This document shows positions 51,591 through 64,000 of a stretch of 64,000 nt of DNA, piece after piece. The stretch is from Acuticoccus sp. MNP-M23. GTDB lineage: Bacteria; Pseudomonadota; Alphaproteobacteria; Rhizobiales; Amorphaceae. The stretch spans positions 124,001 to 188,000 of the forward strand of contig NZ_CP133480.1 of assembly GCF_031195445.1 (NCBI RefSeq), given 5' to 3'. The translations under genes were made by a program, and so were the position numbers. How positions within the stretch are numbered: position 1 is the stretch's first letter; every line of letters starts with the position of its first letter. The notes below the pieces were generated by a model. The model was not told the origin of the DNA and searched no databases. It saw only the letters and a list, made by a program, of their open reading frames with translations.

Positions 51591-54500
51591 GTGGCCGGAA
51601 ACATCATTTTCGAACCTGTCGCGCGGACCGGCAGCTTGCCGCCGTCACTGTCACGGGAGGCCGGTGCGCTCGACCGTCTGACCCGTGTCATCCGCGGCAG
51701 GTTCGGCGCATCGGCCGCAATGATCCTTCCGCCACACACGTCGGATCCCGCCCGCGCACTTGCGGCGGCCGGCGACCTCACGGCGGACCGGCGCCCCGCC
51801 GCCGGCGAAGCGCTCAGAGAGGTCACCGCGCCGATCTTGGGGAGCGTCGGCGAGCAGCTCGGCCAGCTCGTGCTCCGCGTCTCGTCCGATGCTGCGGTCG
51901 ACGCCATCGCGGCGGACGACCTTGAAGATGTCGTTTGTCTGGCCGCAGGCATTCTCGAGGAGCAGGCCGCGGCCCCCACGCTTGCGACCACCGCGGAAGT
52001 GGAAAGCGCCGGCGTCCTCTTTCAGGAATTCCTCAAGGCGGCTCCGGCTGCGATTGCCATGTTCGACACCGGGATGCGCTTCCTCGCGGTCTCGACGTCC
52101 TACCGGACGCTGTTTGGCCTGACGGGAGAGAAGATCCTTGGCCGCTCGCTCTATGACGTCATGCCCGACCTTCCGCCAGAATGGAGCGACCAGCAAAGGC
52201 GGTGCCTCTCGGGCCAGCCGATCGTGGTCGAGCGCGACAGCATTCGCCGGACCGGCGGCGTGCAGAAATTCATCCGCCGCCATCTCGATCCATGGCTCAA
52301 CAAAGACGGCGCGATCGGCGGCATCCTCTCCTGGTGCGATGACATCAGCCCCCGCGTCACGGCCGAAGCGATGCTGGCGGAAAATCAGCACTTCCTTCGT
52401 GCCGTTCTGGAATCCGTCGACGAAGGGATGTCCGCGTGCGATGCGCGCGGTCACGTTCTCTTCCGCAACCGACGGCTGCGCGAGATGCACGACCTCGACG
52501 AGGAGCAGGCGCAAAAAGCATCGCTGCCCGCCGAAGCGCTGAACCTTTACGGCATTGGCGCGACGGAGCGCGTCCCACAGCGCAAATCGCCCCTGTTTCG
52601 GGCCCTCGACGGGGAGCGGGTCGTCGACGAGCGGCTCGAGATCCGCGTTCCAGGCCGGGCGGCGCGACAAATCCTCTCCACGGCGTTGCCGATGGAGGAC
52701 GCCAACGGCGCCTGCATCGGGGCTGTGGTCTCCGAGCGCGACGTTACGCAGTCGGTCGAATCGCTCAGGCTGCTGCGTGAGGCGCATGCGCGCTACCTCG
52801 CGATCTTCAACAACACGTTTCAATTCTGCGCACTGCTGTCCCCGGATGGCAACGTTTTGGAGATCAACAACGCGGCGCTGCGCATGAGCGGCCTTTCGCG
52901 CGACGAGGTCATCGGCTGCCGCCTCTGGGATCTGCCGGGTTTTGCGCGCGATCCGGGCCTGTCGCGGCACGTTGCCGCCGCATTCCGTCTTGCGCGCGGC
53001 GGCGTTTCCCATCGCTATGAGGTCGAGCTCTTCGGCGCCGCCAGCCGCCGCGTGCCTGTCAATTGCGCGCTGGTGCCGGTTTGTGACGAGACAGGCGCAC
53101 TCGTCAACGTCCTCGCCGAGGCGCGCGACATCACCGACGTTCGGCGCAACGAGGCAGCGCTCAAGCAGCACGAGCAGGAGTTGCGGCTGATCCTCAACAG
53201 CGTGCCTTCACGCATCATGGTCAAGAACACGCGCAACGAGATCCTGCGCTGCAACCGCGCGGCGGCCGACGCACTGGGCCGGGGCATCGCCGATGTTGAG
53301 GGGATCAACCTCGAGGCGATCCGCCCGGACCTTGCGCAGCGCGAGTGGCGCAGCGACCTGCGCGTCATCGCCCAGGGCACAATGGTTTCCGCCGCGCCGG
53401 GACCGGACGACATGACGGAGGGCGCAAGCGGCTGGGTCAGCACGACCCGCGTCCCCTTCGCCGACGCCACCACCGGCGAGCAGCTCGTCTGCGTTGTCAC
53501 CAGCGACGTGACCGAACTGGTGGAGGCCCAGCTTGCCTTGCGCGAAAGCGAGTACCAGCACCGCCAGATGTTCAGCCGCACGCCGATGATGCTGCAATCG
53601 ACCGACCTCGAAGGCGCGCTCGAACACGTCAGCGACTACTGGTGCGACAAGCTCGGCTACACGCGTGCGGAGGCTCTGTTCCGCCCGTTCACCGATTTCA
53701 TGACCACCGGATCCCGCGAGCGCGCCCTTGCCAACCGCGCCCACGCGAGCCCGCCCGGCGGTGGTACACAGACCCTGCACGGCGAGTACGAATTCGTCCG
53801 TTCCGACGGCCAGGTTCTCGAGATCGAGCTCTCGGAGCTGATCGAATGGGAGGACGAGGGCAGCTGCAACCGGGTGATCGGCGTTCTCACCGACGTTACC
53901 GAGCGGCGTCGCGCGGAGCGTGACCTCATGCACATGCAGCGGATGGAATCGGTCGGTCAGCTCACCGGGGGCCTCGCACACGACTTCAACAATCTGTTGT
54001 GCGTCGTCCAGGGCAATCTCGAGCTTCTGGATGTGTCGGTGGACAATGATCCGGTCGCACGGCGCCGGGTGAAGGCGGCGGCCAAGGCGGTTGAAAGCGG
54101 CGCTCAGCTGACGCGCCGTCTGCTGACGTTTGCGCGCCGCCAGCCCCTCTCCCGCGCCACGCTTGACCTCGTCACGCTGGTGCGCGGCATCACCGACCTC
54201 CTCCGCCGCGCAGCAGGCGAGGCCGTGCGTATTGAGGTCGACGCCCCCGAAATGAAGCTGGCGGTAAACACCGACGCCTCGCAGGTGGAAGCCGCCCTCC
54301 TGAACCTCACCGTCAATGCGCGCGATGCGATGCCTGACGGCGGGACCCTGACGATCAGGGCCGCGCTCGTCACATTCGGGGACGGCGAGGCGCCGCAGCA
54401 GCTGGAGCCCGGCAGCTACGTCTGCCTCAGCATCATCGATACCGGCGAGGGTATTCCGCCGGAGCTGCAATCGCGCGTGTTGGAGCCGTTCTTCACCACC

Positions 54501-55046
54501 AAGCACAGCGGTTCGGGCAGCGGCCTCGGGCTGAGCATGGTCTACGGCTTCATGCAGCAGACCGGCGGTGCGGTCACGCTTTCCAGCGCGCTGGGCGAAG
54601 GCACGACGATCAACCTCTATTTCCGGCAGTCGACCGACATGGTGGCCGTGCCGCCCACCACCCCCACGGACGAGGAAACGCCAGACACCGCTGTGCGCGA
54701 CGCGACGATCCTCGTGGTCGAGGATCAGGCGGAGGTGCGGGTGGTGCTGGTCGAGGCGCTGCAGAGGCTTGGTTACATGACGATCGATACCGGCGACGTC
54801 GCCGAGGTGGAGGAGGTGCTCGCAGCGTTCGACGTCGACCTCGTCCTCTCCGACGTCGTGCTGCCCGGCCCGCGCAACGGCCTCGCCCTCGCACGGGACC
54901 TCTTCGAAACGAGGCCCGATCTACCCGTGGTGATGATGAGCGGCAATGCAGACGCGGAGGCGGTCATCAACGACCGCCTCACCATGCTCCGCAAGCCGTT
55001 CCAGCGCGAGGAACTTGCCCGCGCCATCGCCGAAGCCCTCGCCTGA
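51591..55046 (+). CDS. Multi-PAS hybrid sensor histidine kinase
   Basis: A 1151-residue cytoplasmic kinase. A GAF-like N-terminus (1-135) is followed by five PAS-type domains (from about 140 to 775). HisKA has the phospho-acceptor His in GGLAHDFNNLL near residue 797. HATPase_c shows NLTVNARDAMPDGG, DTGEGIPPELQSR and GSGLGLSMVYGF. The C-terminal receiver has Asp in VLSDVVLPG near residue 1087. There are no transmembrane segments, so the signal is intracellular. It starts at a GTG with GAGG 5 bases upstream. The OmpR-type regulator on the other side of the RTX gene is a possible output partner. Confidence 0.9.
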   Translation: MAGNIIFEPVARTGSLPPSLSREAGALDRLTRVIRGRFGASAAMILPPHTSDPARALAAAGDLTADRRPAAGEALREVTAPILGSVGEQLGQLVLRVSSDAAVDAIAADDLEDVVCLAAGILEEQAAAPTLATTAEVESAGVLFQEFLKAAPAAIAMFDTGMRFLAVSTSYRTLFGLTGEKILGRSLYDVMPDLPPEWSDQQRRCLSGQPIVVERDSIRRTGGVQKFIRRHLDPWLNKDGAIGGILSWCDDISPRVTAEAMLAENQHFLRAVLESVDEGMSACDARGHVLFRNRRLREMHDLDEEQAQKASLPAEALNLYGIGATERVPQRKSPLFRALDGERVVDERLEIRVPGRAARQILSTALPMEDANGACIGAVVSERDVTQSVESLRLLREAHARYLAIFNNTFQFCALLSPDGNVLEINNAALRMSGLSRDEVIGCRLWDLPGFARDPGLSRHVAAAFRLARGGVSHRYEVELFGAASRRVPVNCALVPVCDETGALVNVLAEARDITDVRRNEAALKQHEQELRLILNSVPSRIMVKNTRNEILRCNRAAADALGRGIADVEGINLEAIRPDLAQREWRSDLRVIAQGTMVSAAPGPDDMTEGASGWVSTTRVPFADATTGEQLVCVVTSDVTELVEAQLALRESEYQHRQMFSRTPMMLQSTDLEGALEHVSDYWCDKLGYTRAEALFRPFTDFMTTGSRERALANRAHASPPGGGTQTLHGEYEFVRSDGQVLEIELSELIEWEDEGSCNRVIGVLTDVTERRRAERDLMHMQRMESVGQLTGGLAHDFNNLLCVVQGNLELLDVSVDNDPVARRRVKAAAKAVESGAQLTRRLLTFARRQPLSRATLDLVTLVRGITDLLRRAAGEAVRIEVDAPEMKLAVNTDASQVEAALLNLTVNARDAMPDGGTLTIRAALVTFGDGEAPQQLEPGSYVCLSIIDTGEGIPPELQSRVLEPFFTTKHSGSGSGLGLSMVYGFMQQTGGAVTLSSALGEGTTINLYFRQSTDMVAVPPTTPTDEETPDTAVRDATILVVEDQAEVRVVLVEALQRLGYMTIDTGDVAEVEEVLAAFDVDLVLSDVVLPGPRNGLALARDLFETRPDLPVVMMSGNADAEAVINDRLTMLRKPFQREELARAIAEALA

Positions 55047-55468: not shown

Positions 55469-56953
55469 TCATCCGCTGCCATCAGGGTCGTCGAGCCGGT
55501 TGATGGCGGGATCGAAGGACCAGACTTGGGTGCTCTCCGGCTGGATGGCGCGCGCCCATGCCCCGAGCCGGTCTTTCTCGATCCGGCGTTCGGCCATCCG
55601 CGCGGCAATCTCGCCAGCGTTCCAGCCTTCGGTGAGGCGGGCGCGCAGCGCATTGCGCACGGTCTGGTGGGCCGGGTCCGCTGCCAGATTGCGGGTTTCC
55701 AGGGGGTCTGCGGCAAGGTCGAACAGCTGGTCGGGCGCATTGTCGTAGATGATGAGCTTGTGGTCGCCCGAACGGATCATCCGCTGCTGCACGGCGCGGC
55801 CGCCGGTCCAGGCCGGCACGGCGTCGGTGCAGTATTCGGAGAAGGTTTCGCTCTGCCACGGTGCGGCGGCATCCTGCGCCAGAGCCCAGAAGCTGCGGCC
55901 ATCGGCGTGGGGCAGTGGCGCGCCGCCCATCGCCTCGATCATGGTCTGGCTGAGGTCGGTGAGGTTGACCACCTGGTCCCGCACCGCGCCCGCAGGCAGG
56001 ACGCCCGGCAACCGCATCACCAGCGGGACCTTCACCGATTCCTCGTAGAACGTGTGCTTCCACCACAGGTCGCGCTCGCCCACATGGTCGCCATGGTCGG
56101 AGGCGTAAACGATCAGCGTGTCATCCATCAGCCCCGCCTCGCCTAGCGCGGCGAGCACGCGGCCGATCATCTCGTCCATCCGCGCCACAAGGCCCCAATA
56201 TGCAGCGCGCGCCCGCGCCACGGCATCGGCCGGCACATCGTCGATGCCGCGGTTCCCGCGCCACCAGGTGTGGAACGGGTGGTCTGCGGCCTCGGGGCCA
56301 AGGTTCGGCGGCGGCACACGGTCCGCGTAGGCCTCGAAGGCGGCCCGGTCCACAACGTAGGGCGGGTGGGGCAGCATCAGGCCGACAGTGAGCGCAAACG
56401 GGGTCCCGCTGGCAGCATGCCGCGGCGCCTCCTCGCGCAGCCATTTGACCGCGGCTTCGGTCACGTCTTCGTCCTTGGCCTGGTAGGCGCCATGGCCGGG
56501 GCCGCTTTTGGCCACCGCTTCGGGCTGCGGATCGTTGGTGCCGGCCAGTACGCCGAGCGAATGGCGCGACGTGCCCGGCCAGTTGGGGCTGTGGTCGCCC
56601 ACATGGCGCTCCGCATAGCCGTGCAGCTGGTCCGGCCCCAGCGCATGCATCCGGCCGATCAGCACCGGCCGCGCCCCGGCCGCGCCCATCGCGTGGAGCC
56701 ATGTGGGGAGGTCCGAGCGCAAGATATCGTCGTTGGTCCAGCACTCCTGCCGGTGGGGAAAGCGGCCGGTCAGCATGCTCATCCGGCTTGGGACGCACAC
56801 TGGCGAAGGGCAGTAGGCGTTGGTGAAGCGCACGCCTTCGGCTGCAAGCCGGTCGATGTGCGGGGTATCGACCACCTTGTCGCCATAGCAGCCGGTGACA
56901 GCCGGTGTGTGCTGGTCGGAAAAGAGAAAGAGCAGGTTGCGGGGTTTTGCCAT
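55469..56953 (-). CDS. Type I sulfatase
   Basis: A 494-residue sulfatase of the alkaline phosphatase fold. The N-terminus holds the metal site FLFSDQH (Asp13), and the signature PVCVPSRMSMLTG contains Cys53, which is converted to formylglycine by a maturase. DHGDHVGERDLWWKHTFYEESV supplies more metal and substrate residues. It resembles choline-sulfatase and arylsulfatase branches, but the substrate is not certain. No signal peptide is seen, so it is probably cytoplasmic. The ATG at 56953 is used; upstream codons to a TTG at 57004 are low-complexity. Confidence 0.87.
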   Translation of the reverse strand: MAKPRNLLFLFSDQHTPAVTGCYGDKVVDTPHIDRLAAEGVRFTNAYCPSPVCVPSRMSMLTGRFPHRQECWTNDDILRSDLPTWLHAMGAAGARPVLIGRMHALGPDQLHGYAERHVGDHSPNWPGTSRHSLGVLAGTNDPQPEAVAKSGPGHGAYQAKDEDVTEAAVKWLREEAPRHAASGTPFALTVGLMLPHPPYVVDRAAFEAYADRVPPPNLGPEAADHPFHTWWRGNRGIDDVPADAVARARAAYWGLVARMDEMIGRVLAALGEAGLMDDTLIVYASDHGDHVGERDLWWKHTFYEESVKVPLVMRLPGVLPAGAVRDQVVNLTDLSQTMIEAMGGAPLPHADGRSFWALAQDAAAPWQSETFSEYCTDAVPAWTGGRAVQQRMIRSGDHKLIIYDNAPDQLFDLAADPLETRNLAADPAHQTVRNALRARLTEGWNAGEIAARMAERRIEKDRLGAWARAIQPESTQVWSFDPAINRLDDPDGSG

Positions 56954-57141
56954 CGGGGCGTTCTGCCTCTTGTTGCGGGGCGCATGGTGCCGGCGGTGCC
57001 CCAACGCAATTGACGAGTTCGGACGGTAATCTTAGGAGTTTGCCAAAGCGCACCGGCTTCGTAACGTGCTTCAATGGGATCCGGCTACACGAAAGCCATG
57101 GCCGGTCAGTCGCCGCGGCTGGGCAAGCAAGGACGAGTGGT

Positions 57142-57561
57142 GTGAGCCAGGCTTTCACGTTGACCCTCGCAAGCTCTGACGATCCCGGCCTGCTTGCTGC
57201 CGCGGTCGAAGCGTTTGCCGAAGACCAGGCGCTGCCGATGAAGTCGGCCTTCACGCTCGATCTGGTGCTGGAAGAGATCGTCACCAACATCATCAACCAC
57301 GGCGCGGGACCCGGCGGCGCCACGGTCGACATCACGGTCCAGCGCGACGGCGACGCCCTCAAGGGCACTGTGCGCGACAACGCTGCCCCGTTCGATCCGC
57401 TGACCCGGCCCCCGGTCGATGTCAGCGCCAGTGTGGAGGAGCGCGAGATCGGCGGGCTCGGCATCCATCTTGTACGCGAAATGACCGAGACTCTGGGCTA
57501 CACCTATGCCGACGGGCACAACGTGCTGACCTTCACGATCGGCCTCAAGGAGTTAACGTGA
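57142..57561 (+). CDS. RsbW-like anti-sigma/serine kinase (GHKL ATPase)
   Basis: A 139-residue HATPase_c2 protein. The N box is LEEIVTNIINHG, the G1-like VRDNAAPFDP and the G2 GGLGIHLVREM follow, as in RsbW/SpoIIAB kinases that phosphorylate STAS antagonists and bind a target such as a sigma factor. The GTG at 57142 is preceded by AGGA. Its stop overlaps the STAS gene (GTGA). It is the kinase half of a partner-switching pair whose target is not in the window. Confidence 0.87.
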   Translation: MSQAFTLTLASSDDPGLLAAAVEAFAEDQALPMKSAFTLDLVLEEIVTNIINHGAGPGGATVDITVQRDGDALKGTVRDNAAPFDPLTRPPVDVSASVEEREIGGLGIHLVREMTETLGYTYADGHNVLTFTIGLKELT

Positions 57562-57902
57562 GCGAGCTGACACTCAAGACCGAAACGGTGGACGGCGTTG
57601 CCGTCTTCATCCCAGCCGGACGGATCGACTCGCAGACATCGAAAACATTCGAGGAGGCGGTGCTCGCTGCCATTGCCGCCGGCTCCACACGCATGGTCTT
57701 CGACTTTGCCGATCTCGCCTACATTTCCAGCGCGGGCCTGCGGGTTGTGCTTCTGGCCGGCAAGCGGGTGCGCACGGCCGGCGGCAAGCTGGTGCTGGCG
57801 AACCTCCAGCCGGCCATCCGGGAAGTCTTCGAGATTTCCGGCTTTCTCAACCTCTTCACGGTCACAGACGACCGTGCAGCAGCGGTGGCCGCCACCGCCT
57901 GA
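57558..57902 (+). CDS. STAS-domain anti-sigma factor antagonist
   Basis: A 114-residue SpoIIAA/RsbV-like protein. The phosphorylatable serine is Ser57 or Ser58 in YISSAGLRVVLL, and the N-terminus has IPAGRIDSQTSKTFEEAV. Unphosphorylated, such proteins bind the partner kinase and free its target. It is translationally coupled to the RsbW-like gene upstream by a GTGA overlap. A phosphatase (RsbU-type PP2C) to complete the switch is not present in the window. Confidence 0.88.
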   Translation: MSELTLKTETVDGVAVFIPAGRIDSQTSKTFEEAVLAAIAAGSTRMVFDFADLAYISSAGLRVVLLAGKRVRTAGGKLVLANLQPAIREVFEISGFLNLFTVTDDRAAAVAATA

Positions 57903-57926
57903 CGCGGACTGTGCTTTCCTGCCGCC

Positions 57927-58607
57927 TCAGGCGGCGCCGCCGCGCAACGGGCCGAATTTGAGCTGGCCGATGCCATCGTCCTGTGCCCGGCACGCAAAGG
58001 CCGCCTCCCCGGCCTGAAACCGGTCCTGCGCCTCGTCGATCCGTCCCGCTTCCATCCACTGGCAGTCTGCTGCCGGGCGAACGGGCGCGGCCACCGGGCG
58101 GTGGTTCACATAGCGCCAGCCATAGGGTTTGCGCACCAGCGCAACCGTTGCAAAGCCGCACTTCAACAGGTTGCGCATGGACGGGATGTTGCCGGGCGAG
58201 GCCTTGGCAATCACGTGGCTGGCGCCAAGGCGGGCGGCCTCTGCAATCCGCGTGTCGATGATCGCGCGTTGCAGCCCGCGCCTCCAGTAGGCCGGTGCCA
58301 CCGCGGAACCGTCGAGCACCATCAGCGGCGCCTCGGCCGGAACCACACTGGCAAGGCCGGTCCGGTCGTGCTCACTGTCCAGCACCGGCCGCAGAACACC
58401 GTAGGCGATGAGCTGCGGCCCGTCGCGAAAGCCGACGATCCCGCCGCCGACTGCGAAAATCTCGTCGAAGAATGCCGGCTCGTCGGGCCGCACCGCTGCC
58501 GGATTGGGCAGGCGCGACAGGGCGCTGAGGTACAGGCGGTACACCTCGTCGACATCCCCGCGCGTCAGGCGGACCTCGTCCAGCGTGGAGGCGGCGGCCA
58601 GGGTCAT
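57927..58607 (-). CDS. GNAT-family N-acetyltransferase
   Basis: A 226-residue protein with a GNAT core: the acetyl-CoA loop region VAPAYWRRGLQRAIIDTRIAEAARLG, and ASPGNIPSMRNLLKCGF in the last strand and helix. It is the final gene of a four-gene operon joined by ATGA overlaps to the solute-binding protein. An acyltransferase downstream of a sensor and transporter is unusual and may modify a protein or metabolite of the pathway. The acceptor is unknown. Its 3' end faces the STAS gene, with 24 bases between the stops. Confidence 0.78.
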   Translation of the reverse strand: MTLAAASTLDEVRLTRGDVDEVYRLYLSALSRLPNPAAVRPDEPAFFDEIFAVGGGIVGFRDGPQLIAYGVLRPVLDSEHDRTGLASVVPAEAPLMVLDGSAVAPAYWRRGLQRAIIDTRIAEAARLGASHVIAKASPGNIPSMRNLLKCGFATVALVRKPYGWRYVNHRPVAAPVRPAADCQWMEAGRIDEAQDRFQAGEAAFACRAQDDGIGQLKFGPLRGGAA

Positions 58608-59596
58608 GTGAGGACGTTCGCGTAGCTCAACATGCCCAGCGGCGGGTAGAGTTCCATCTCGCGCGCCAGCGGCATGTTGATGATGAGCGCGAACCGCTCC
58701 AGCGTCTCGATGGGAATTTCAGCCGGCGCCGTGCCGGTCACCAGAATCTGCTCGGCCTTGTAGGCGGTGAGCTGCCCCAGCGAATAATAGCGGCAGACGA
58801 GGCTGATGAGGGCTGACCGCTGCAGCAGCTCCACCGCCGAAAAGCCGGGCAGCCCGAGCGCCGTCGCAGCCGGGGCCACCTGCTCGATGTTCTGCGACAG
58901 GAACGTGTCCGGCAGATAATAGAGCCACTCGGCGCCTTCGGCAGCCAACTCTGCCACCAGAGCGGGGGCGGTCGACGCATCCGGTTTGCCGTCGGCACCC
59001 AACGCAAACGTGCGCTCCAGCAAAGTGAAGCCCATCTCGCCCTCGATGCTGCGCAGGTCCGCGACAATTGCGTTCGAGTTCTGCTCGGTGGGCGTATAGA
59101 GCACGCCCAGCCGCTTGAACGGGCGGTAGGCGTCCATCGCGCGGAGCTGCGGCGCGGCCGGCACCACGTGAGAGGTGCCGGTGATGTTGCGCCCGGAAGA
59201 GGCGCGGCTCGGCACGACGCCCGCCTTCACCGGTGTCGATACCATGGTGAAGACGCCCGGAATGTCGGTGATATAGCGCGCGGGGTCGGGGTCATCGTCC
59301 TTGCCGAAGGTCGCCAGCGTGACCGGTGTTCCCCATGTGTAGACAAGGTCCGGCTTTGCCTCACGGACTTCCTTCAGAATGTCCGGCACCCGCGAAGGGT
59401 CCAGCTCGGCAGAGCGGTGGGTGATTTCCACGTCGATGCCGCGTTGCTCCAGATAGTCGCGGAAACCGCGTTCCACATCGGTTTCGCCGCGGTATGTGAT
59501 CTGAAAGATCCTGAACGGGTCTCTGGCTCTCGCGATCCGCGGTGCGGAGAGGGCCGCAAGGCCGCCAAGCACGGTCCGGCGCGATACGCCAATCAT
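58604..59596 (-). CDS. Orphan ABC-type solute-binding protein with Tat signal
   Basis: A 330-residue protein of the ABC_sub_bind (PF04392-like) family. The N-terminus has a twin-arginine signal (VSRRTVLGGLAALSA), so it is exported folded. RIFQITYRGETDVERGFRDYL starts the first lobe, and KRLGVLYTPTEQNSNAIV is typical of the second. No permease or ATPase is adjacent, so it likely works as a ligand-presenting partner rather than a transporter part. It overlaps both neighbours by ATGA. Confidence 0.83.
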   Translation of the reverse strand: MIGVSRRTVLGGLAALSAPRIARARDPFRIFQITYRGETDVERGFRDYLEQRGIDVEITHRSAELDPSRVPDILKEVREAKPDLVYTWGTPVTLATFGKDDDPDPARYITDIPGVFTMVSTPVKAGVVPSRASSGRNITGTSHVVPAAPQLRAMDAYRPFKRLGVLYTPTEQNSNAIVADLRSIEGEMGFTLLERTFALGADGKPDASTAPALVAELAAEGAEWLYYLPDTFLSQNIEQVAPAATALGLPGFSAVELLQRSALISLVCRYYSLGQLTAYKAEQILVTGTAPAEIPIETLERFALIINMPLAREMELYPPLGMLSYANVLT

Positions 59597-61593
59597 GTCA
59601 TCTCCCCCACTTCAACCGAGGTGCCGGACCGTCCGGCGAGCCACGCCGTCAGCCCGAACACGAGCCCGCCGCCTGCCACGATAACGGCCGTTGCCACAAG
59701 CGCCACTTCGGCGGACCACATGGTCCACAATGCGCCCACAAACAAAGGCCCGAGCGCTGTGCCAAGCCTCTCCACCAGACGGAACACACCGTAGACCCCG
59801 CCCTCCGAAAGGTCCGGAATGATGCGGCGGCCGATTTCACCCACCAGCGCCGACTGCGGCGTCGTCGAGATGCCTTGTGCAATGCCGATCTGCGCGACCA
59901 TGGCAGCGGCGCCCCACGGCGCCGGCCACAGGTAAAGATGCCCCACGGCGCTGGCCGCCGCCAGAGCGCCGCCGACCACAAAAGGCGTCCGATTTCGCGC
60001 ATTGTCGCTGAACGCCGAGATGGTGGGCACCACAATCAGCATGGCGAGCCCGTAGAGCATCAGCACCCGGCCGATGGCCGAATCCTCGAACTGCCCCTGC
60101 AGCGCCAGCGGCAGATAATAAAAGCACACGCCAATCAGGAGCATCTTGGCCGGGAGCGCGCAGCCCACCAGAAGCGTCGCCATCAGCGGGCGTTTCAGGA
60201 CCGTGGCAAGATCGGACAGGCGCACCGCCCGTCCGCGGACCGCATTCTGCCCGGCGGTGGCTGGCAGCGCCACGTAGGCGCACGCATAGGCGGCAAGCGC
60301 CATGGCGGCGCTGACGAGGAAGGTGGTGTTCTCGCCCAGCCGATCGGACACGATGCCGCCAATGGGCGGCCCGCACAGCATCGCCGCCATGATGGCCGAA
60401 ACGAAGAGGCCGATGCCGCGCGCCCGCTGCCGCGAATCCGTCCGGTCCACAATGAACCCCTGCGCTGCCACGAACACCGCGGCAAAGCCGATGGCGGTGA
60501 CGGCGCGAAAGCCGATCAGCTCCGTCATTGTGGTGGCGAACGCCGTACCGGCAAAACCGAGCGCTGCCACCAGCGCGCCTGCCCGCAGCGCGCGCGCCCT
60601 GCCAAAGCGCTCGGTGACCCCGTTCAGCCAGGGCTGGGACAGGGCCACGATGGCCATGAAGATCACCATGGGCGCCGCAATCACGAGCTGGGTGGCGGTA
60701 CCGCTGGCGCCATGCGCCACACTGGCAATGTAGTGCGGCAAAAATGGCCGGGTCATTTCCTCGGCAAAGAAGAACAGGAACACCGGGGCGCGGATGGCAA
60801 CCAGCGAAACCGGCGCGGGCTCTGAGCCTTTGCCGATGTTGTGGGCGGCCGCAAAGGCTTCAAGCCGGGCGGTGGACGCTGCATCCCCCGCCTCCGCCGC
60901 CTGGAGAGCCAGGCGCGCATGGCGCGCGCGCAACTTGTTGACGCGGTGGTCGATCGCATCGATCTCGGCGGCGATGGGTCCACTGCCGCCCACCGGCGGC
61001 AGCAGGCGCAGATTGCCTTGCCTCACCGCATCCAGCCGCAGGCTGAGGCCGCGAAACCGCTGCGCCGATGGCAGCGCAAACGCAAAGGCCGTCAGTTCCA
61101 GCGCCACCAGCACCGCAACCACCAGCAGCACCAGACCGTCGACCCACAAATCGCGCACCAGCGTCTGCGCCACATCCACCGGCACGGCAATCTCCACCCG
61201 TCCGGCGGGCTCGCCGTCAGGCCCGACGACAGGTGCATGAACCCGGCGCCATTCGTCTGCAGCGTCGGTATTTGCGAACCGGCTGCGCTGGACGCTGGCC
61301 ACGATATTGCCGTTCTCGTCCTCCAGCGCAGCCGCCGCGAACTGGGCGTTCTCGTCCAGCGCATTCTGCAGCACGGCGTTTGCGCCCACGAAGCGGTCCA
61401 CCGGAATGCCGTAGCCCACGGCTTCGGACGAAAGGCTGGCGATGGAGCTGGCAACGCTTTCCGCCTTGCGATCCAGAGCAGGCACCAGAAGCGCGCGTGC
61501 GCCTTCGACGGTCTGCCAGGAGATCAGCGCCAGCCCGGCAATGAGTGTCGCCAGAACGATGGCAAGGACGGCAGCATCGGTGCGGCGGTTCAT
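59593..61593 (-). CDS. Sensor-HAMP-MFS fusion membrane protein
   Basis: A 666-residue protein in which a two-TM sensor module is fused to a major facilitator transporter. TM1 spans about 8-29. A periplasmic domain (about 30-148) includes SEAVGYGIPVDRFVGANAV and EDENGNIVASV, and TM2 spans about 151-173. A HAMP-like and coiled segment follows (LSLRLDAVRQGNLRLLPP, to about 255). From about 265 to 655 comes an MFS core of about 12 helices with RFGRARALRAGALVAALG. A sensor that directly gates or reports on an MFS carrier is an unusual domain order. It is coupled by ATGA overlaps to the sensor gene upstream and the binding protein downstream. Confidence 0.82.
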   Translation of the reverse strand: MNRRTDAAVLAIVLATLIAGLALISWQTVEGARALLVPALDRKAESVASSIASLSSEAVGYGIPVDRFVGANAVLQNALDENAQFAAAALEDENGNIVASVQRSRFANTDAADEWRRVHAPVVGPDGEPAGRVEIAVPVDVAQTLVRDLWVDGLVLLVVAVLVALELTAFAFALPSAQRFRGLSLRLDAVRQGNLRLLPPVGGSGPIAAEIDAIDHRVNKLRARHARLALQAAEAGDAASTARLEAFAAAHNIGKGSEPAPVSLVAIRAPVFLFFFAEEMTRPFLPHYIASVAHGASGTATQLVIAAPMVIFMAIVALSQPWLNGVTERFGRARALRAGALVAALGFAGTAFATTMTELIGFRAVTAIGFAAVFVAAQGFIVDRTDSRQRARGIGLFVSAIMAAMLCGPPIGGIVSDRLGENTTFLVSAAMALAAYACAYVALPATAGQNAVRGRAVRLSDLATVLKRPLMATLLVGCALPAKMLLIGVCFYYLPLALQGQFEDSAIGRVLMLYGLAMLIVVPTISAFSDNARNRTPFVVGGALAAASAVGHLYLWPAPWGAAAMVAQIGIAQGISTTPQSALVGEIGRRIIPDLSEGGVYGVFRLVERLGTALGPLFVGALWTMWSAEVALVATAVIVAGGGLVFGLTAWLAGRSGTSVEVGEMT

Positions 61594-62264
61594 GTGGCGC
61601 GTGCCTCATGGCCAGGCGGGCGCGCCATCTGGGCGGCAATGGCGTCCTGTTCACGGGCAATATCGGCAAGGATGGCTGCGGTTTCGGGCGGGACGCGGCC
61701 TTCGGCCGTTTCGGGGCCGAGGAGGCGGCTGACCGCGCCCCGCACCCCGAGCGAGACCAGCACGATGAGCACCAGCGCCCCGGCAAGGCCGGCAATGAGC
61801 GCGGTGCTGATCACCCGCGGCGCCAGCGGCGCAAGCGCGGCATACACCCGCTGAGGGTCGGCAATGGCCATCACCTGCCCCTCCACGGTGCCAAAGGCGG
61901 AAATGATGATCGCGCTGCGCAGGGTTTCATTGCTGTCCTCGAAGCCTTCGCCGGCAACGGTCCCGCTCTCGAACAGCACCCGGCCATCGAGCGCTGCAAC
62001 CCGCAACGCGCCGATGGCCGGATCGGCGGACATTTCACGCTCCATCGTGCGCTCCAGACCGACCTGTCCGGCAAGCGGCAACCCCAGCATCAGTGCGGTG
62101 TGGGCTTCGTTGGCGATCCGCCGGCTGACGGTCTCGAACCGCTCCCCCGTCAGCTCGACATAAGCGGCGCGCACGCTGGCATAATTGAGGTAAGCGCCGA
62201 GCAGCAACGTCACCGCCAGAAGCGGCAGGAGCGAGGCAAGAATTGCCAGGGCGAGTGCGCGCAC
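61590..62264 (-). CDS. Two-TM membrane sensor-like protein, paralog A
   Basis: A 224-residue protein: TM1 near 5-25, a periplasmic domain to about 150 (NEAHTALMLGLPLAGQVGLE, ALDGRVLFESG), TM2 near 157-180 and a short cytoplasmic tail. It matches the sensor part of the MFS fusion in layout and in a GLP/GIP-type motif. The GTG at 62264 is chosen because AAGGGG lies 5 bases upstream; upstream codons would place a long soluble leader ahead of TM1. It is first in the operon and divergent from paralog B. Confidence 0.7.
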   Translation of the reverse strand: MRALALAILASLLPLLAVTLLLGAYLNYASVRAAYVELTGERFETVSRRIANEAHTALMLGLPLAGQVGLERTMEREMSADPAIGALRVAALDGRVLFESGTVAGEGFEDSNETLRSAIIISAFGTVEGQVMAIADPQRVYAALAPLAPRVISTALIAGLAGALVLIVLVSLGVRGAVSRLLGPETAEGRVPPETAAILADIAREQDAIAAQMARPPGHEARAT

Positions 62265-62485
62265 GATCACCCCTTTTCGGCTTGGCGGCGTGTGGTCCGG
62301 TCTGCCGGAAGCTTTCGTCGGCGGTGCAAGGCCACGGCGGGACAGGAATGCACACGACGGTCGCACGGCGTCTTCGCGTGCAGGCTTGCTCGCCACCCCC
62401 GATCTTGTCAACGTCGTCACGGCGTGATGGGTGGAACCGAAGTTACGCACCTGACGGGCTCTCCCCCGGGTGCTAGAGAAACATC
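62265..62485. promoter_or_regulatory. Divergent promoter region between the two sensor operons
   Basis: The 221-base spacer must hold start sites for both the sensor/HAMP-MFS/binding-protein/GNAT operon and the plus-strand sensors. I see no convincing -35/-10 pair, and no sigma-54 or extracytoplasmic-function consensus. Paired transcription from one spacer suggests joint control. Confidence 0.4.
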
Positions 62486-63226
62486 ATGGGTCGTTTTTCC
62501 GTCTTAACTTCAACGGTTCTCATCGCCGTTCTGGGCGTCATCGCCTACACGCTCGTGGCAACGCGGACGATGGAACGGTCTGCCGCGCAGCTTGCGGCCG
62601 CCCAGTTCGATTTCATTTTATCGCGCGCCGACGAGGCCATCGAACGCAATCTCCACCTCGGCCTGGCGCTGGGCGAGGTGAACCAGGCCTCCGCCGCGCT
62701 GGAGCGTGCCATGTCGCGCTCGCCCTCCATTCTCGGTGCGGACGTGATCTCGGTTGGCGGGACGACCCTTTATTCAACCGATCGCGGCGCCCTTGGCGAA
62801 CCCATTCCGGACCGGTGGCGCATCGCCATCAACGACACGCACAACGAGACCTGGCGCGCCGAAGCCTTCGATAGTGTGACCATGGGCCGGCCGGTCAGCA
62901 ACGATTTCGGTCAGGTCGAAGGGTGGGCCGCCCTCATCATCGACCGCGACGCCCTCTCCGCTCCACTTTCCGAAGCGCCGCGCACGGTGCGGATGATGCT
63001 GCCGGCCATCATCCTCGTGGCTCTGGGAGCGCTGGTGATTGCGGCCGTCGTGATCCGCTGGTCCTACCGCAGGGCATGGATCGACCTGAAGACACCGCCC
63101 CCGCCGCCGGAGCGGCGCGATGCGTTCGATCAGGCCAATCTCCGCGCCGTCGAAAGCTGTGCAAACACCAATGCGGTGCTGGCCCAAGTCCGCACCGAAA
63201 TCCAGCGGCTCGATGCCATTGTCTGA
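62486..63226 (+). CDS. Two-TM membrane sensor-like protein, paralog B
   Basis: A 246-residue protein with TM1 near 4-25, a periplasmic domain (about 30-165; IERNLHLGLALGEVNQASAA, VGGTTLYSTDRG), TM2 near 168-192 (RMMLPAIILVALGALVIAAV) and a short proline-rich cytoplasmic tail ending RTEIQRLDAIV. The design matches paralog A and the sensor half of the MFS fusion. It has no kinase, cyclase or phosphatase output domain, so it may act by protein contact. Its stop lies within the start of the next gene (14-base overlap). Confidence 0.7.
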   Translation: MGRFSVLTSTVLIAVLGVIAYTLVATRTMERSAAQLAAAQFDFILSRADEAIERNLHLGLALGEVNQASAALERAMSRSPSILGADVISVGGTTLYSTDRGALGEPIPDRWRIAINDTHNETWRAEAFDSVTMGRPVSNDFGQVEGWAALIIDRDALSAPLSEAPRTVRMMLPAIILVALGALVIAAVVIRWSYRRAWIDLKTPPPPPERRDAFDQANLRAVESCANTNAVLAQVRTEIQRLDAIV

Positions 63227-64000
63227 GCCAGTCCCGTCACATCAGGCCGGCCAGCGGGATCTTGCCGGTGCCCGCCGCGCCGACAGGGCTGCCTTCGTGC
63301 TGGCCCTCTCGGTCGGCGCGGTGGTGCTCGTGGCAACGCTCTGGCTTGCGACCATCATGATCCAGCCGCGCCTCCAGCGTCTGGAAGTGGCCTCCACCGA
63401 AGCGGCGCAGACCCTCGCCAGCGCCGTGGCCGAGGACTTTGCCGAGGCCGTCGCCCTTGGCATTCCCCTTCCCCAGATGCGCGGCGTCGATGATTATCTG
63501 AGCGCTGTCCTGCGGTCGGATAACCTTGTTTCCGCGGTTCTCGTGCTCGGTGCCGAGGAGCAACGCCTTTTCGCCGTTCCTGCGCGAACAGCGGTGCCGC
63601 GGCCGCTGGTGCGCGCGCAGATCATGGTTGATGACAAGGCGGTGGGCACCATCATCGCCGGTCCCTCGCCGCAGATCGCCGAAACGGCCAGACTGCACCT
63701 GCTGCGCTCTGCCATTGCGATGGCTCTTCTTGTGGGGCTGTTGTCCGGCATCCTGTTTCGCATCGCGCTTCTGGAGCGGTTGAACCTGCCGCAGGCGCGC
63801 CTTGGTGCCGCAGCCGGCGCTGTCGGCCGCGGAACGTTCGGCGAATTCACACCGCCGCGGGCCGGCGCGATGCTGGCGCTCGGGCGCAGTGCGGGGCTGC
63901 TGCTTGCCCCCATCCGGCGCGAATACCGCCGCCTCGTCGCCCTCACCGACGAGGTGCGCGCGCTCGACACGTTCGGCCGGGTCCGCACCGAAATCGACGA
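63213..64000 (+). CDS. Two-TM membrane sensor-like protein, paralog C (3' end outside window)
   Basis: An open frame from the ATG at 63213 continues without a stop to the window end (262 codons). It starts MPLSEPVPSHQAGQRDLAGA. A TM1 follows (AFVLALSVGAVVLVATLWLA), then a periplasmic domain with EAVALGIPLPQMRGVDDYL and LGAEEQRLFAVP, a TM2 (AIAMALLVGLLSGILFRIAL) and a cytoplasmic part that has begun by the edge. It resembles paralogs A and B. Whatever output domain it has lies beyond 64000. Confidence 0.7.
   Translation, partial: MPLSEPVPSHQAGQRDLAGARRADRAAFVLALSVGAVVLVATLWLATIMIQPRLQRLEVASTEAAQTLASAVAEDFAEAVALGIPLPQMRGVDDYLSAVLRSDNLVSAVLVLGAEEQRLFAVPARTAVPRPLVRAQIMVDDKAVGTIIAGPSPQIAETARLHLLRSAIAMALLVGLLSGILFRIALLERLNLPQARLGAAAGAVGRGTFGEFTPPRAGAMLALGRSAGLLLAPIRREYRRLVALTDEVRALDTFGRVRTEID

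Follow-up and report, generated by a model that had tools for sequence, protein, structure and literature searches.

In the LuxP-LuxQ, TorT-TorS and ChvE-VirA systems, a periplasmic binding protein of a family other than the one described below reports to a membrane sensor kinase; these systems have no MFS domain and their output is a histidine kinase. To our knowledge, proteobacterial partner switches are mostly without known inputs. We know of no solute-binding protein (SBP) or MFS protein in SiaABCD of Pseudomonas aeruginosa, and of no fused periplasmic sensor or SBP in UhpC. In UhpBC, the MFS protein UhpC is the sensor for the histidine kinase UhpB (PMC4790336). In R. capsulatus RbaVWY, RbaY has a receiver domain and rbaVW is described as a two-gene operon (PMC3999984). 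TrpXYZ and CD0873 are aromatic amino acid ABC importers with binding proteins of family PF04392 (PMC9382623, PMC6816091). It has been proposed that, through coiled-coil linkers, one type of sensor can be shared by phosphatases, kinases and cyclases (PMC12143880).

We analyzed a stretch of 64,000 nucleotides (the window) from Acuticoccus sp. MNP-M23. It contains most of a cluster that appears to be an undescribed surface sensor controlling a phosphatase switch, and relatives appear to connect the same sensor to other outputs. The original prediction had called the system undescribed, and no published description was found in the literature searched. The cluster shares with RsbU-RsbV-RsbW and SpoIIE-SpoIIAA-SpoIIAB a PP2C phosphatase, a STAS protein with a predicted phosphorylatable Ser, and an RsbW kinase, all with key residues, but its input side (an SBP and two sensor/sensor-MFS pairs) is new and no sigma-like gene was recognized nearby. 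SiaABCD also includes a HAMP-containing membrane PP2C protein, a STAS-type partner and a nucleotide cyclase as possible output, but that enzyme is a diguanylate cyclase and the one here is a class III cyclase. The phosphatase is not a SiaA orthologue (NCBIfam SiaA score of 59.1 bits, cut-off 700). UhpBC, with an MFS-type receptor for a signaling enzyme, is a precedent for the role proposed here for S1MFS and S2MFS, but its output is a histidine kinase. The SBP belongs to the same family as the TrpXYZ and CD0873 binding proteins, but the cluster lacks a permease or ATPase.

Gene order at the home locus

The genes are listed in Table 1. A four-gene chain (sensor, sensor-MFS, SBP and GNAT acetyltransferase) joined by ATGA had been described, and all three overlaps (S1/S1MFS, S1MFS/SBP and SBP/GNAT) are present in the sequence. 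The RsbW-like kinase and STAS genes said to converge on this operon are confirmed by matches to PF13581 and PF01740; they overlap by GTGA and are convergent with GNAT. Of the two sensors thought to diverge from the operon, S2 stands, divergent from S1 across the 215-bp gap, and the other proves to be the first part of another sensor-MFS protein, truncated where the window ends. The S2 and S2MFS genes overlap by 14 nt, and the remainder of S2MFS and the phosphatase lie outside the window in the same rightward operon. The claim that the sensors lack a normal output domain does not hold, as the next gene encodes a sensor-HAMP-PP2C phosphatase, an RsbU-like enzyme of the kind that RsbW and STAS require. 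The missing output was an artefact, because the window edge cuts before this gene. Sulfatase, PAS hybrid kinase and urease genes were rejected as cluster members, as they are not conserved as neighbors.

Table 1. Predicted features of the cluster, in window positions and, where marked, L003 positions
Feature	Position	Strand	Remarks
RsbW-like HATPase_c_2 Ser/Thr kinase	about 57142..57561	+	Start inferred from orthologues; ORF open from 56905
STAS anti-anti-sigma-type protein	57558..57902	+	PF01740; TIGR00377 above cut-off
GNAT acetyltransferase	57927..58607	-	PF00583 33.8 bits (cut-off 20.7); final gene of leftward operon
SBP, Tat-type periplasmic binding protein, TrpX-like	58604..59596	-	PF04392 83.5 bits (cut-off 25.9)
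S1MFS, periplasmic sensor, HAMP-like segment and 12-helix MFS	59593..61593	-	PF07690 111.6 bits at 272-586
S1, two-TM periplasmic sensor without cytoplasmic output domain	61590..62270	-	GTG start 62270; ORF open to 62450
Divergent intergenic region, 215 bp	62271..62485		Presumed promoters of both operons
S2, two-TM periplasmic sensor, S1 paralogue	62486..63226	+	
S2MFS, sensor and divergent MFS-fold protein	63213..65090 (L003:9214-11091)	+	Window ends at 64000
Sensor-HAMP-SpoIIE/PP2C phosphatase	65091-67139 (L003:11092-13140)		Rightward operon, beyond right edge
PAS-class III cyclase	L003:13137-14492	-	

Binding protein, sensors and MFS proteins

The SBP is encoded by a single-copy gene and is the best-conserved protein of the cluster set. 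As originally predicted, it has no permease: the three genomes checked, including the home genome, each have one PF04392 copy and no TrpY-type permease (PF06541), which rules out an ordinary ABC importer with a permease encoded elsewhere. Its score against the TrpX equivalog model is 83 bits (cut-off 390). The twin arginine (R6-R7) and L10 of the signal are invariant in 17 orthologues, and we predict Tat export, as had been claimed. In alignments with TrpX and VC_1101, an invariant His (His143) takes the place of TrpX Asp152, Asn233 is replaced by Thr231, and the Asp preceding VC_1101 Tyr262 by an invariant Arg (Arg269); Thr90 and Tyr270 are retained. An ordinary aromatic L-amino acid, the ligand suggested by family analogy, is disfavored by these replacements and is unlikely because of the change at Asp152. 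Since the SBP is the sole member of its family in the genome, the signal could be sought by direct ligand screening.

None of the sensors of the cluster matches a Pfam family; their predicted topology suggests a Cache-like fold. S1 has two TM segments and is a paralogue of S2 (2e-7 for S1 against the S2 profile, 3e-13 for S2 against the S1 profile). In relatives of 800-855 amino acids, S1 and the sensor-MFS are joined as one protein. The sensor and MFS parts of the sensor-HAMP-MFS fusion originally described hold; the HAMP is a weak match, with no Pfam hit and an hhalign probability of 57% (E 1e-4) to the HAMP of the phosphatase. The S1MFS structure model (pLDDT 79) has a helix-loop-helix at this segment, and a related sensor in L092 carries PF00672 (45 bits). 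The sensors of S2MFS and S1MFS are homologous (hhalign 99.6%), and a model of an S2MFS orthologue (pLDDT 85.6) matches MFS structures, e.g., NorA (TM 0.70). Sequence and models identify both proteins as MFS-fold proteins.

Probable partner switch and conservation across genomes

The phosphatase matches PF07228 (166 bits) and its metal aspartates (D477, D495, D614 and D666/D667) are invariant. RsbW matches PF13581 with 69 bits, can be aligned with its B. subtilis counterparts RsbW and SpoIIAB (PDB matches), and has an N-box (E57, N61) and GGLG motif (G116-G119) that are invariant in 12 orthologues. The STAS motif YISSAGLR is invariant; its second Ser, which aligns with SpoIIAA Ser58 and is invariant in 13 orthologues, is the predicted phosphorylation site. 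All parts of an RsbU/V/W-type partner switch are present with key residues, and we predict a phospho-cycle.

Clusters of orthologous genes are present in Acuticoccus, Amorphus, Chelatococcus, Mesorhizobium, Jiella and Albimonas, among others. Among 62 loci, the sensor-MFS gene is near a PF04392 binding-protein gene in 60 and near a phosphatase gene in 36. The SBP gene comes directly after the sensor-MFS gene, often with an ATGA overlap. Another 23 loci have the two-arm cluster with S2MFS, and two of these show a cyclase swap. L090 has a single operon of S1MFS, SBP, PP2C and RsbW with 4-nt overlaps throughout, and L086 a single operon of GNAT, SBP, S1, S1MFS and PP2C. The families recur together, and RsbW and STAS adjoin the cluster in most full clusters, an outcome in favor of the original prediction. 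In two Acuticoccus-group genomes the orthologous RsbW/STAS pair is located elsewhere in the genome; both have one close RsbW orthologue, and no SpoIIE domain was found besides that of the cluster phosphatase. A relative without the cluster (89% complete) has neither a SpoIIE domain nor a close RsbW orthologue. We reject a chance neighborhood, because the same genes are found in the same order across Alphaproteobacteria, over many genera, and because copy numbers are exclusive.

A predicted joint function of the cluster genes is strongly supported by synteny, single-operon versions and domain fusions, and the cluster is probably one signaling module in which the SBP and sensor-MFS proteins control the phosphatase partner switch. 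The exported SBP would capture a small periplasmic ligand and act on membrane proteins that combine an MFS domain with a pair of periplasmic sensor units. There would be two such receptors, S1 with S1MFS and the diverged copy S2 with S2MFS. These may gate the membrane phosphatase (dCache-type sensor, HAMP, coiled coil and SpoIIE/PP2C) encoded by the last gene of the S2 operon, which would strip the phosphate placed by RsbW on STAS Ser58. Unphosphorylated STAS would bind RsbW and free its client, or STAS itself may act on an effector, perhaps the neighboring class III cyclase. We infer the ligand binding, the SBP-sensor contact, the final target and the direction in which control runs. With a periplasmic sensor of its own, the phosphatase could act independently of the other sensors. 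Signal transfer by direct contact or through the partner switch had been suggested; with the phosphatase as the next gene, a phosphatase-driven switch is much likelier than contact between sensor tails and RsbW/STAS. The locus provides a conserved, compact input module fixed to one partner switch.

A GNAT gene is near the cluster at 29 of the 62 loci, an alanine racemase at 13 and a D-Ala-D-Ala-ligase (Ddl)-like ATP-grasp gene at 11; L092 has two weak Ddl-like proteins. The enzyme set differs between clades, some having none, and GNAT is alone in the home cluster. Signaling alone does not account for these neighbors.

Alternative roles and other outputs

The SBP and S1MFS could instead form a binding-protein-dependent secondary transporter for uptake or efflux, with the phosphatase, RsbW and STAS only regulating it or metabolic neighbors. 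The MFS part of S1MFS is better conserved than the sensor (mean identity 52% vs 41%) and has invariant charged residues (E278, E279, R282, K483, R605, E608, R609), and both the SBP gene position and the recurring enzymes would fit. However, the MFS carries fused sensor domains, signaling outputs of several chemistries recur, the front end is found inside type VI secretion operons, and the strong divergence of S2MFS (31%, no Pfam match) is expected for a non-transporting transducer. We consider transport as the main role unlikely. Less likely still, GNAT, alanine racemase and the ATP-grasp enzyme would produce or alter a signal derived from an amino acid, either self-made or of cell-wall origin, which would be moved by the MFS and detected by the SBP and sensors. 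The counts above favor this idea, but the enzymes vary by clade and no product is known.

For the last step of the signaling module, RsbW may restrain a client whose gene lies elsewhere, such as a sigma factor, in the manner of classical sigma-B/F switches, a possibility we hold tentatively. The alignment of RsbW with its B. subtilis counterparts and its retained residues agree with this, but no RsbW client of any kind was recognized in the cluster, and no sigma-like gene in the inspected neighborhoods, where domain profiles covered part of the flanking ORFs. In R. capsulatus, a search for a cognate sigma factor of RbaVW found none, and RbaV itself is regarded as the output (PMC3999984). It is slightly more doubtful that the cyclase is the final output, with free STAS activating or inhibiting it and the module controlling cAMP. 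The cyclase, with CyaB as its best PDB match, adjoins the phosphatase in every cluster of Acuticoccus and Amorphus as well as in L027, L038 and L039, and SiaC activating SiaD is a precedent (PMC8457831). Against this, clusters of Mesorhizobium, Chelatococcus, Jiella and Albimonas without the cyclase keep the phosphatase, and most also RsbW and STAS; the cyclase is also transcribed towards the phosphatase and therefore has its own promoter.

Comparison between species, through swaps and fusions, shows which of the parts communicate. In L081 and L083, a class III cyclase domain of the same family as the neighboring cyclase replaces the phosphatase domain exactly, and neither RsbW nor STAS was found close by. 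Elsewhere the front end adjoins GGDEF-EAL or histidine kinase genes. The front end is not bound to the partner switch, as some relatives have the sensor-MFS and SBP but lack a nearby phosphatase. It is conceivable, if still the weaker bet, that an SBP-dependent MFS transceptor is a widespread receptor type in which MFS replaces the ABC, TRAP or TTT permease. It would comprise an SBP, two sensor units and an MFS domain, with PP2C-RsbW-STAS, class III cyclase, GGDEF-EAL, histidine kinase and type VI systems as swapped outputs. If the SBP-MFS pairing is physical, this would be a receptor architecture of which we know no example, and the type VI operon placement would point to a candidate extracellular cue for those secretion systems. 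In L092 and L093, first considered as MFS-phosphatase fusions, domain coordinates show the sensor-HAMP fused to PP2C without the MFS.

Gene organization of the cluster

The original prediction described genes for a sensor (S1), a sensor-MFS protein (S1MFS), a solute-binding protein (SBP) and an acetyltransferase (GNAT) joined by ATGA overlaps, with divergent sensors and convergent RsbW and STAS genes. The overlaps and Pfam matches bear this out. It also held that none of the sensors seen has a normal output domain, but this came from the window edge, which hid a phosphatase encoded directly after the second sensor-MFS gene (S2MFS). The metal aspartates are kept in all phosphatase orthologues aligned, RsbW orthologues keep the N-box and glycines, and STAS orthologues keep a serine aligning with SpoIIAA Ser58; a partner switch, itself of a known kind, is therefore represented by all three of its parts.

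Features of the cluster and related loci (window = 124001-188000 of contig C1, genome 5.16 Mb; L numbers are genomic loci, with L003 the home locus past the window)
Feature	Position	Arrangement	Domains and remarks
Hybrid histidine kinase	51591-55046 (+)	adjoins cluster	1151 aa, multi-PAS, receiver domain; neighbor not conserved
Sulfatase	55469-56953 (-)	diverges from RsbW	PF00884, SGSH_C; neighbor not conserved
RsbW	about 57142-57561	convergent on leftward operon	HATPase_c_2
STAS	57558-57902	convergent on leftward operon; GTGA overlap with RsbW	STAS
GNAT	57927-58607	leftward operon, last of four	GNAT
SBP	58604-59596	leftward operon; ATGA overlap with GNAT	ABC_sub_bind
S1MFS	59593-61593	leftward operon; ATGA overlap with SBP	MFS_1
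S1	61590-62270	leftward operon; ATGA overlap with S1MFS	
S2	62486-63226	divergent from leftward operon across 215 bp; S2MFS next	
S2MFS	ends at 65090	runs past right edge	
Phosphatase	65091-67139	directly after S2MFS	682 aa; SpoIIE/PP2C (166 bits), HAMP
PAS-class III cyclase		after and convergent to phosphatase	
ureG-like, ureF-like genes	L003:13137-16076	precede PAS-cyclase, same strand	cyclase and UreG ORFs overlap as listed
Swapped protein	L081:14780-16963; L083:3058-5241	in place of phosphatase	exact replacement of PP2C catalytic domain by class III cyclase domain
FlhB/YscU-family export gene	L086:8350-10205	adjoins SBP/sensor-MFS/PP2C operon	flagellar or type III secretion locus

Each of S1 and S2 combines two membrane segments with a periplasmic domain of some 130-150 residues that no Pfam family matches. 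S1MFS and S2MFS are homologous in their sensor parts (hhalign 99.6%). Pfam does not recognize the home S2MFS; the model of an orthologue (pLDDT 85.6) has an MFS fold and matches NorA (TM 0.70). Mean pairwise identity is 52% in the MFS part of S1MFS (41% in its sensor), whereas the MFS part of S2MFS is not conserved (31%), a contrast suggesting that S1MFS may still handle a ligand or ion and that S2MFS has turned transducer. SBP is the most conserved protein of the set (61%), and its orthologues keep the twin-arginine signal. Compared with TrpX and relatives, an Asp reported among the ligand-binding residues is replaced by an invariant His and a neighboring acidic or amide position by an invariant Arg; these residues make a plain aromatic amino acid an unlikely ligand. 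Three genomes were checked for PF04392, the SBP family, and PF06541, the TrpY-type permease family: each has a single PF04392 copy, at this cluster, and none has PF06541.

Conservation across genomes

The sensor-MFS family was found in 31 of 385 genomes in a class-wide search and 12 of 398 in a phylum-wide search. Named hosts of orthologues are Acuticoccus, Amorphus, Chelatococcus, Mesorhizobium, Jiella, Albimonas, and several uncultured Alphaproteobacteria. The arrangement RsbW, STAS, GNAT, SBP, S1MFS, S1, then divergently S2, S2MFS, PP2C is kept in cluster-bearing Acuticoccus and Amorphus genomes and in other families. SBP is present in 60 of 62 sensor-MFS neighborhoods (the remaining two are short contigs), the phosphatase in 36, GNAT in 29, RsbW in 27 (a profile count that may include some distant homologues), STAS in 25, the cyclase in 16, alanine racemase in 13, and a D-Ala-D-Ala-ligase-like (Ddl-like) ATP-grasp gene in 11. 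Profile counts of PAS-kinase/GGDEF proteins in these neighborhoods may likewise include some distant homologues.

The racemase lies on the GNAT/STAS side in clusters outside Acuticoccus and Amorphus (L027, L028, L038-L044, L046-L048). Racemase or Ddl-like genes recur beside the module in these loci and L085, with further cases at L029-L032, L092, L098, L100, L101, L103, L104, L122, and L123, hinting at D-alanine or cell-wall chemistry.

In two same-genus genomes RsbW and STAS are not beside the cluster. Both have one close RsbW orthologue elsewhere with an adjoining STAS gene, and their sole SpoIIE-type phosphatase is the one encoded in the cluster. A relative in which no cluster was detected (genome 89% complete) has neither a close RsbW orthologue nor a SpoIIE-type phosphatase. 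Far from the cluster, the home genome encodes a second, different partner-switch module (L136, G000:C1:294000-309999) with RsbT-like, RsbX-like, STAS, kinase, and response regulator genes and, by motif, a KaiC-like protein.

Proposed link to the phosphatase and predicted signaling

In L081 and L083, residues 1-425 of the swapped protein are the sensor-HAMP-coiled-coil of the phosphatase, and the rest is the catalytic domain of the cyclase family that neighbors the phosphatase in Acuticoccus; neither neighborhood showed an RsbW or STAS gene. A coiled-coil linker has been proposed to let outputs be exchanged in this phosphatase class (PMC12143880). A complete phosphatase in L092 and L093 is preceded, within one fused protein, by a sensor-HAMP unit that resembles the one in the sensor-MFS protein. 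S1MFS, SBP, PP2C, and RsbW are consecutive with 4-nt overlaps in L090, and L086 has GNAT, SBP, S1, S1MFS, and PP2C in one co-directional run. The simplest reading of these fusions, swaps, and runs is that SBP and the sensor/MFS proteins are linked to the phosphatase, physically or at least functionally.

The gene cluster behind the prediction is confirmed, and its anatomy, conservation, residues, and fusions are shown by the analysis; its interpretation as a joint signaling system is partly supported and is improved here. We infer all interactions and the direction of control as follows. Ligand would act through SBP on the sensor/MFS proteins and these on the phosphatase, which would convert STAS~P to STAS; RsbW would then be sequestered and its client freed. 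UhpC is an MFS-type protein. UhpC-UhpB is a precedent for the proposed membrane-protein sensing role, with UhpC, an integral membrane protein, sensing glucose-6-phosphate for the kinase UhpB (PMC4790336). As an alternative or additional last step, STAS may target the neighboring cyclase; SiaC-SiaD (PMC8457831) offers an analogy, and the cyclase swap agrees with such a step. Rhodobacter capsulatus RbaV, where the output appears to be the STAS protein itself and not a sigma factor (PMC3999984), is a precedent for STAS as output.

A proposed receptor exchanged between outputs

In other relatives, two sensor units and the MFS form a single 800-855-aa protein with SBP adjoining; S1 and S1MFS are therefore its split form, and S2 and S2MFS are a diverged, head-to-head second copy of that pair. 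PAS-GGDEF-EAL or PAS-histidine-kinase genes lie near the fused protein and SBP in L029-L032, L098, L101, L104, L122, and L123, most of which also have the Ddl-like gene. To our knowledge, the literature searched describes no receptor that joins an orphan SBP with sensor-MFS proteins and is exchanged between outputs, as proposed here.

Seven genomes from a different class of the phylum (L116-L119, L141-L143) carry sensor-MFS and SBP genes within type VI secretion operons, placed either between ClpV and TssK or ahead of VgrG. Neighbors include ClpV, TssF/G, TssK/L/M, or VgrG. Where the placement is ClpV-TssK, a second SBP gene (PF00497-type) follows, and several of the type VI loci encode an FHA-like protein, by motif.
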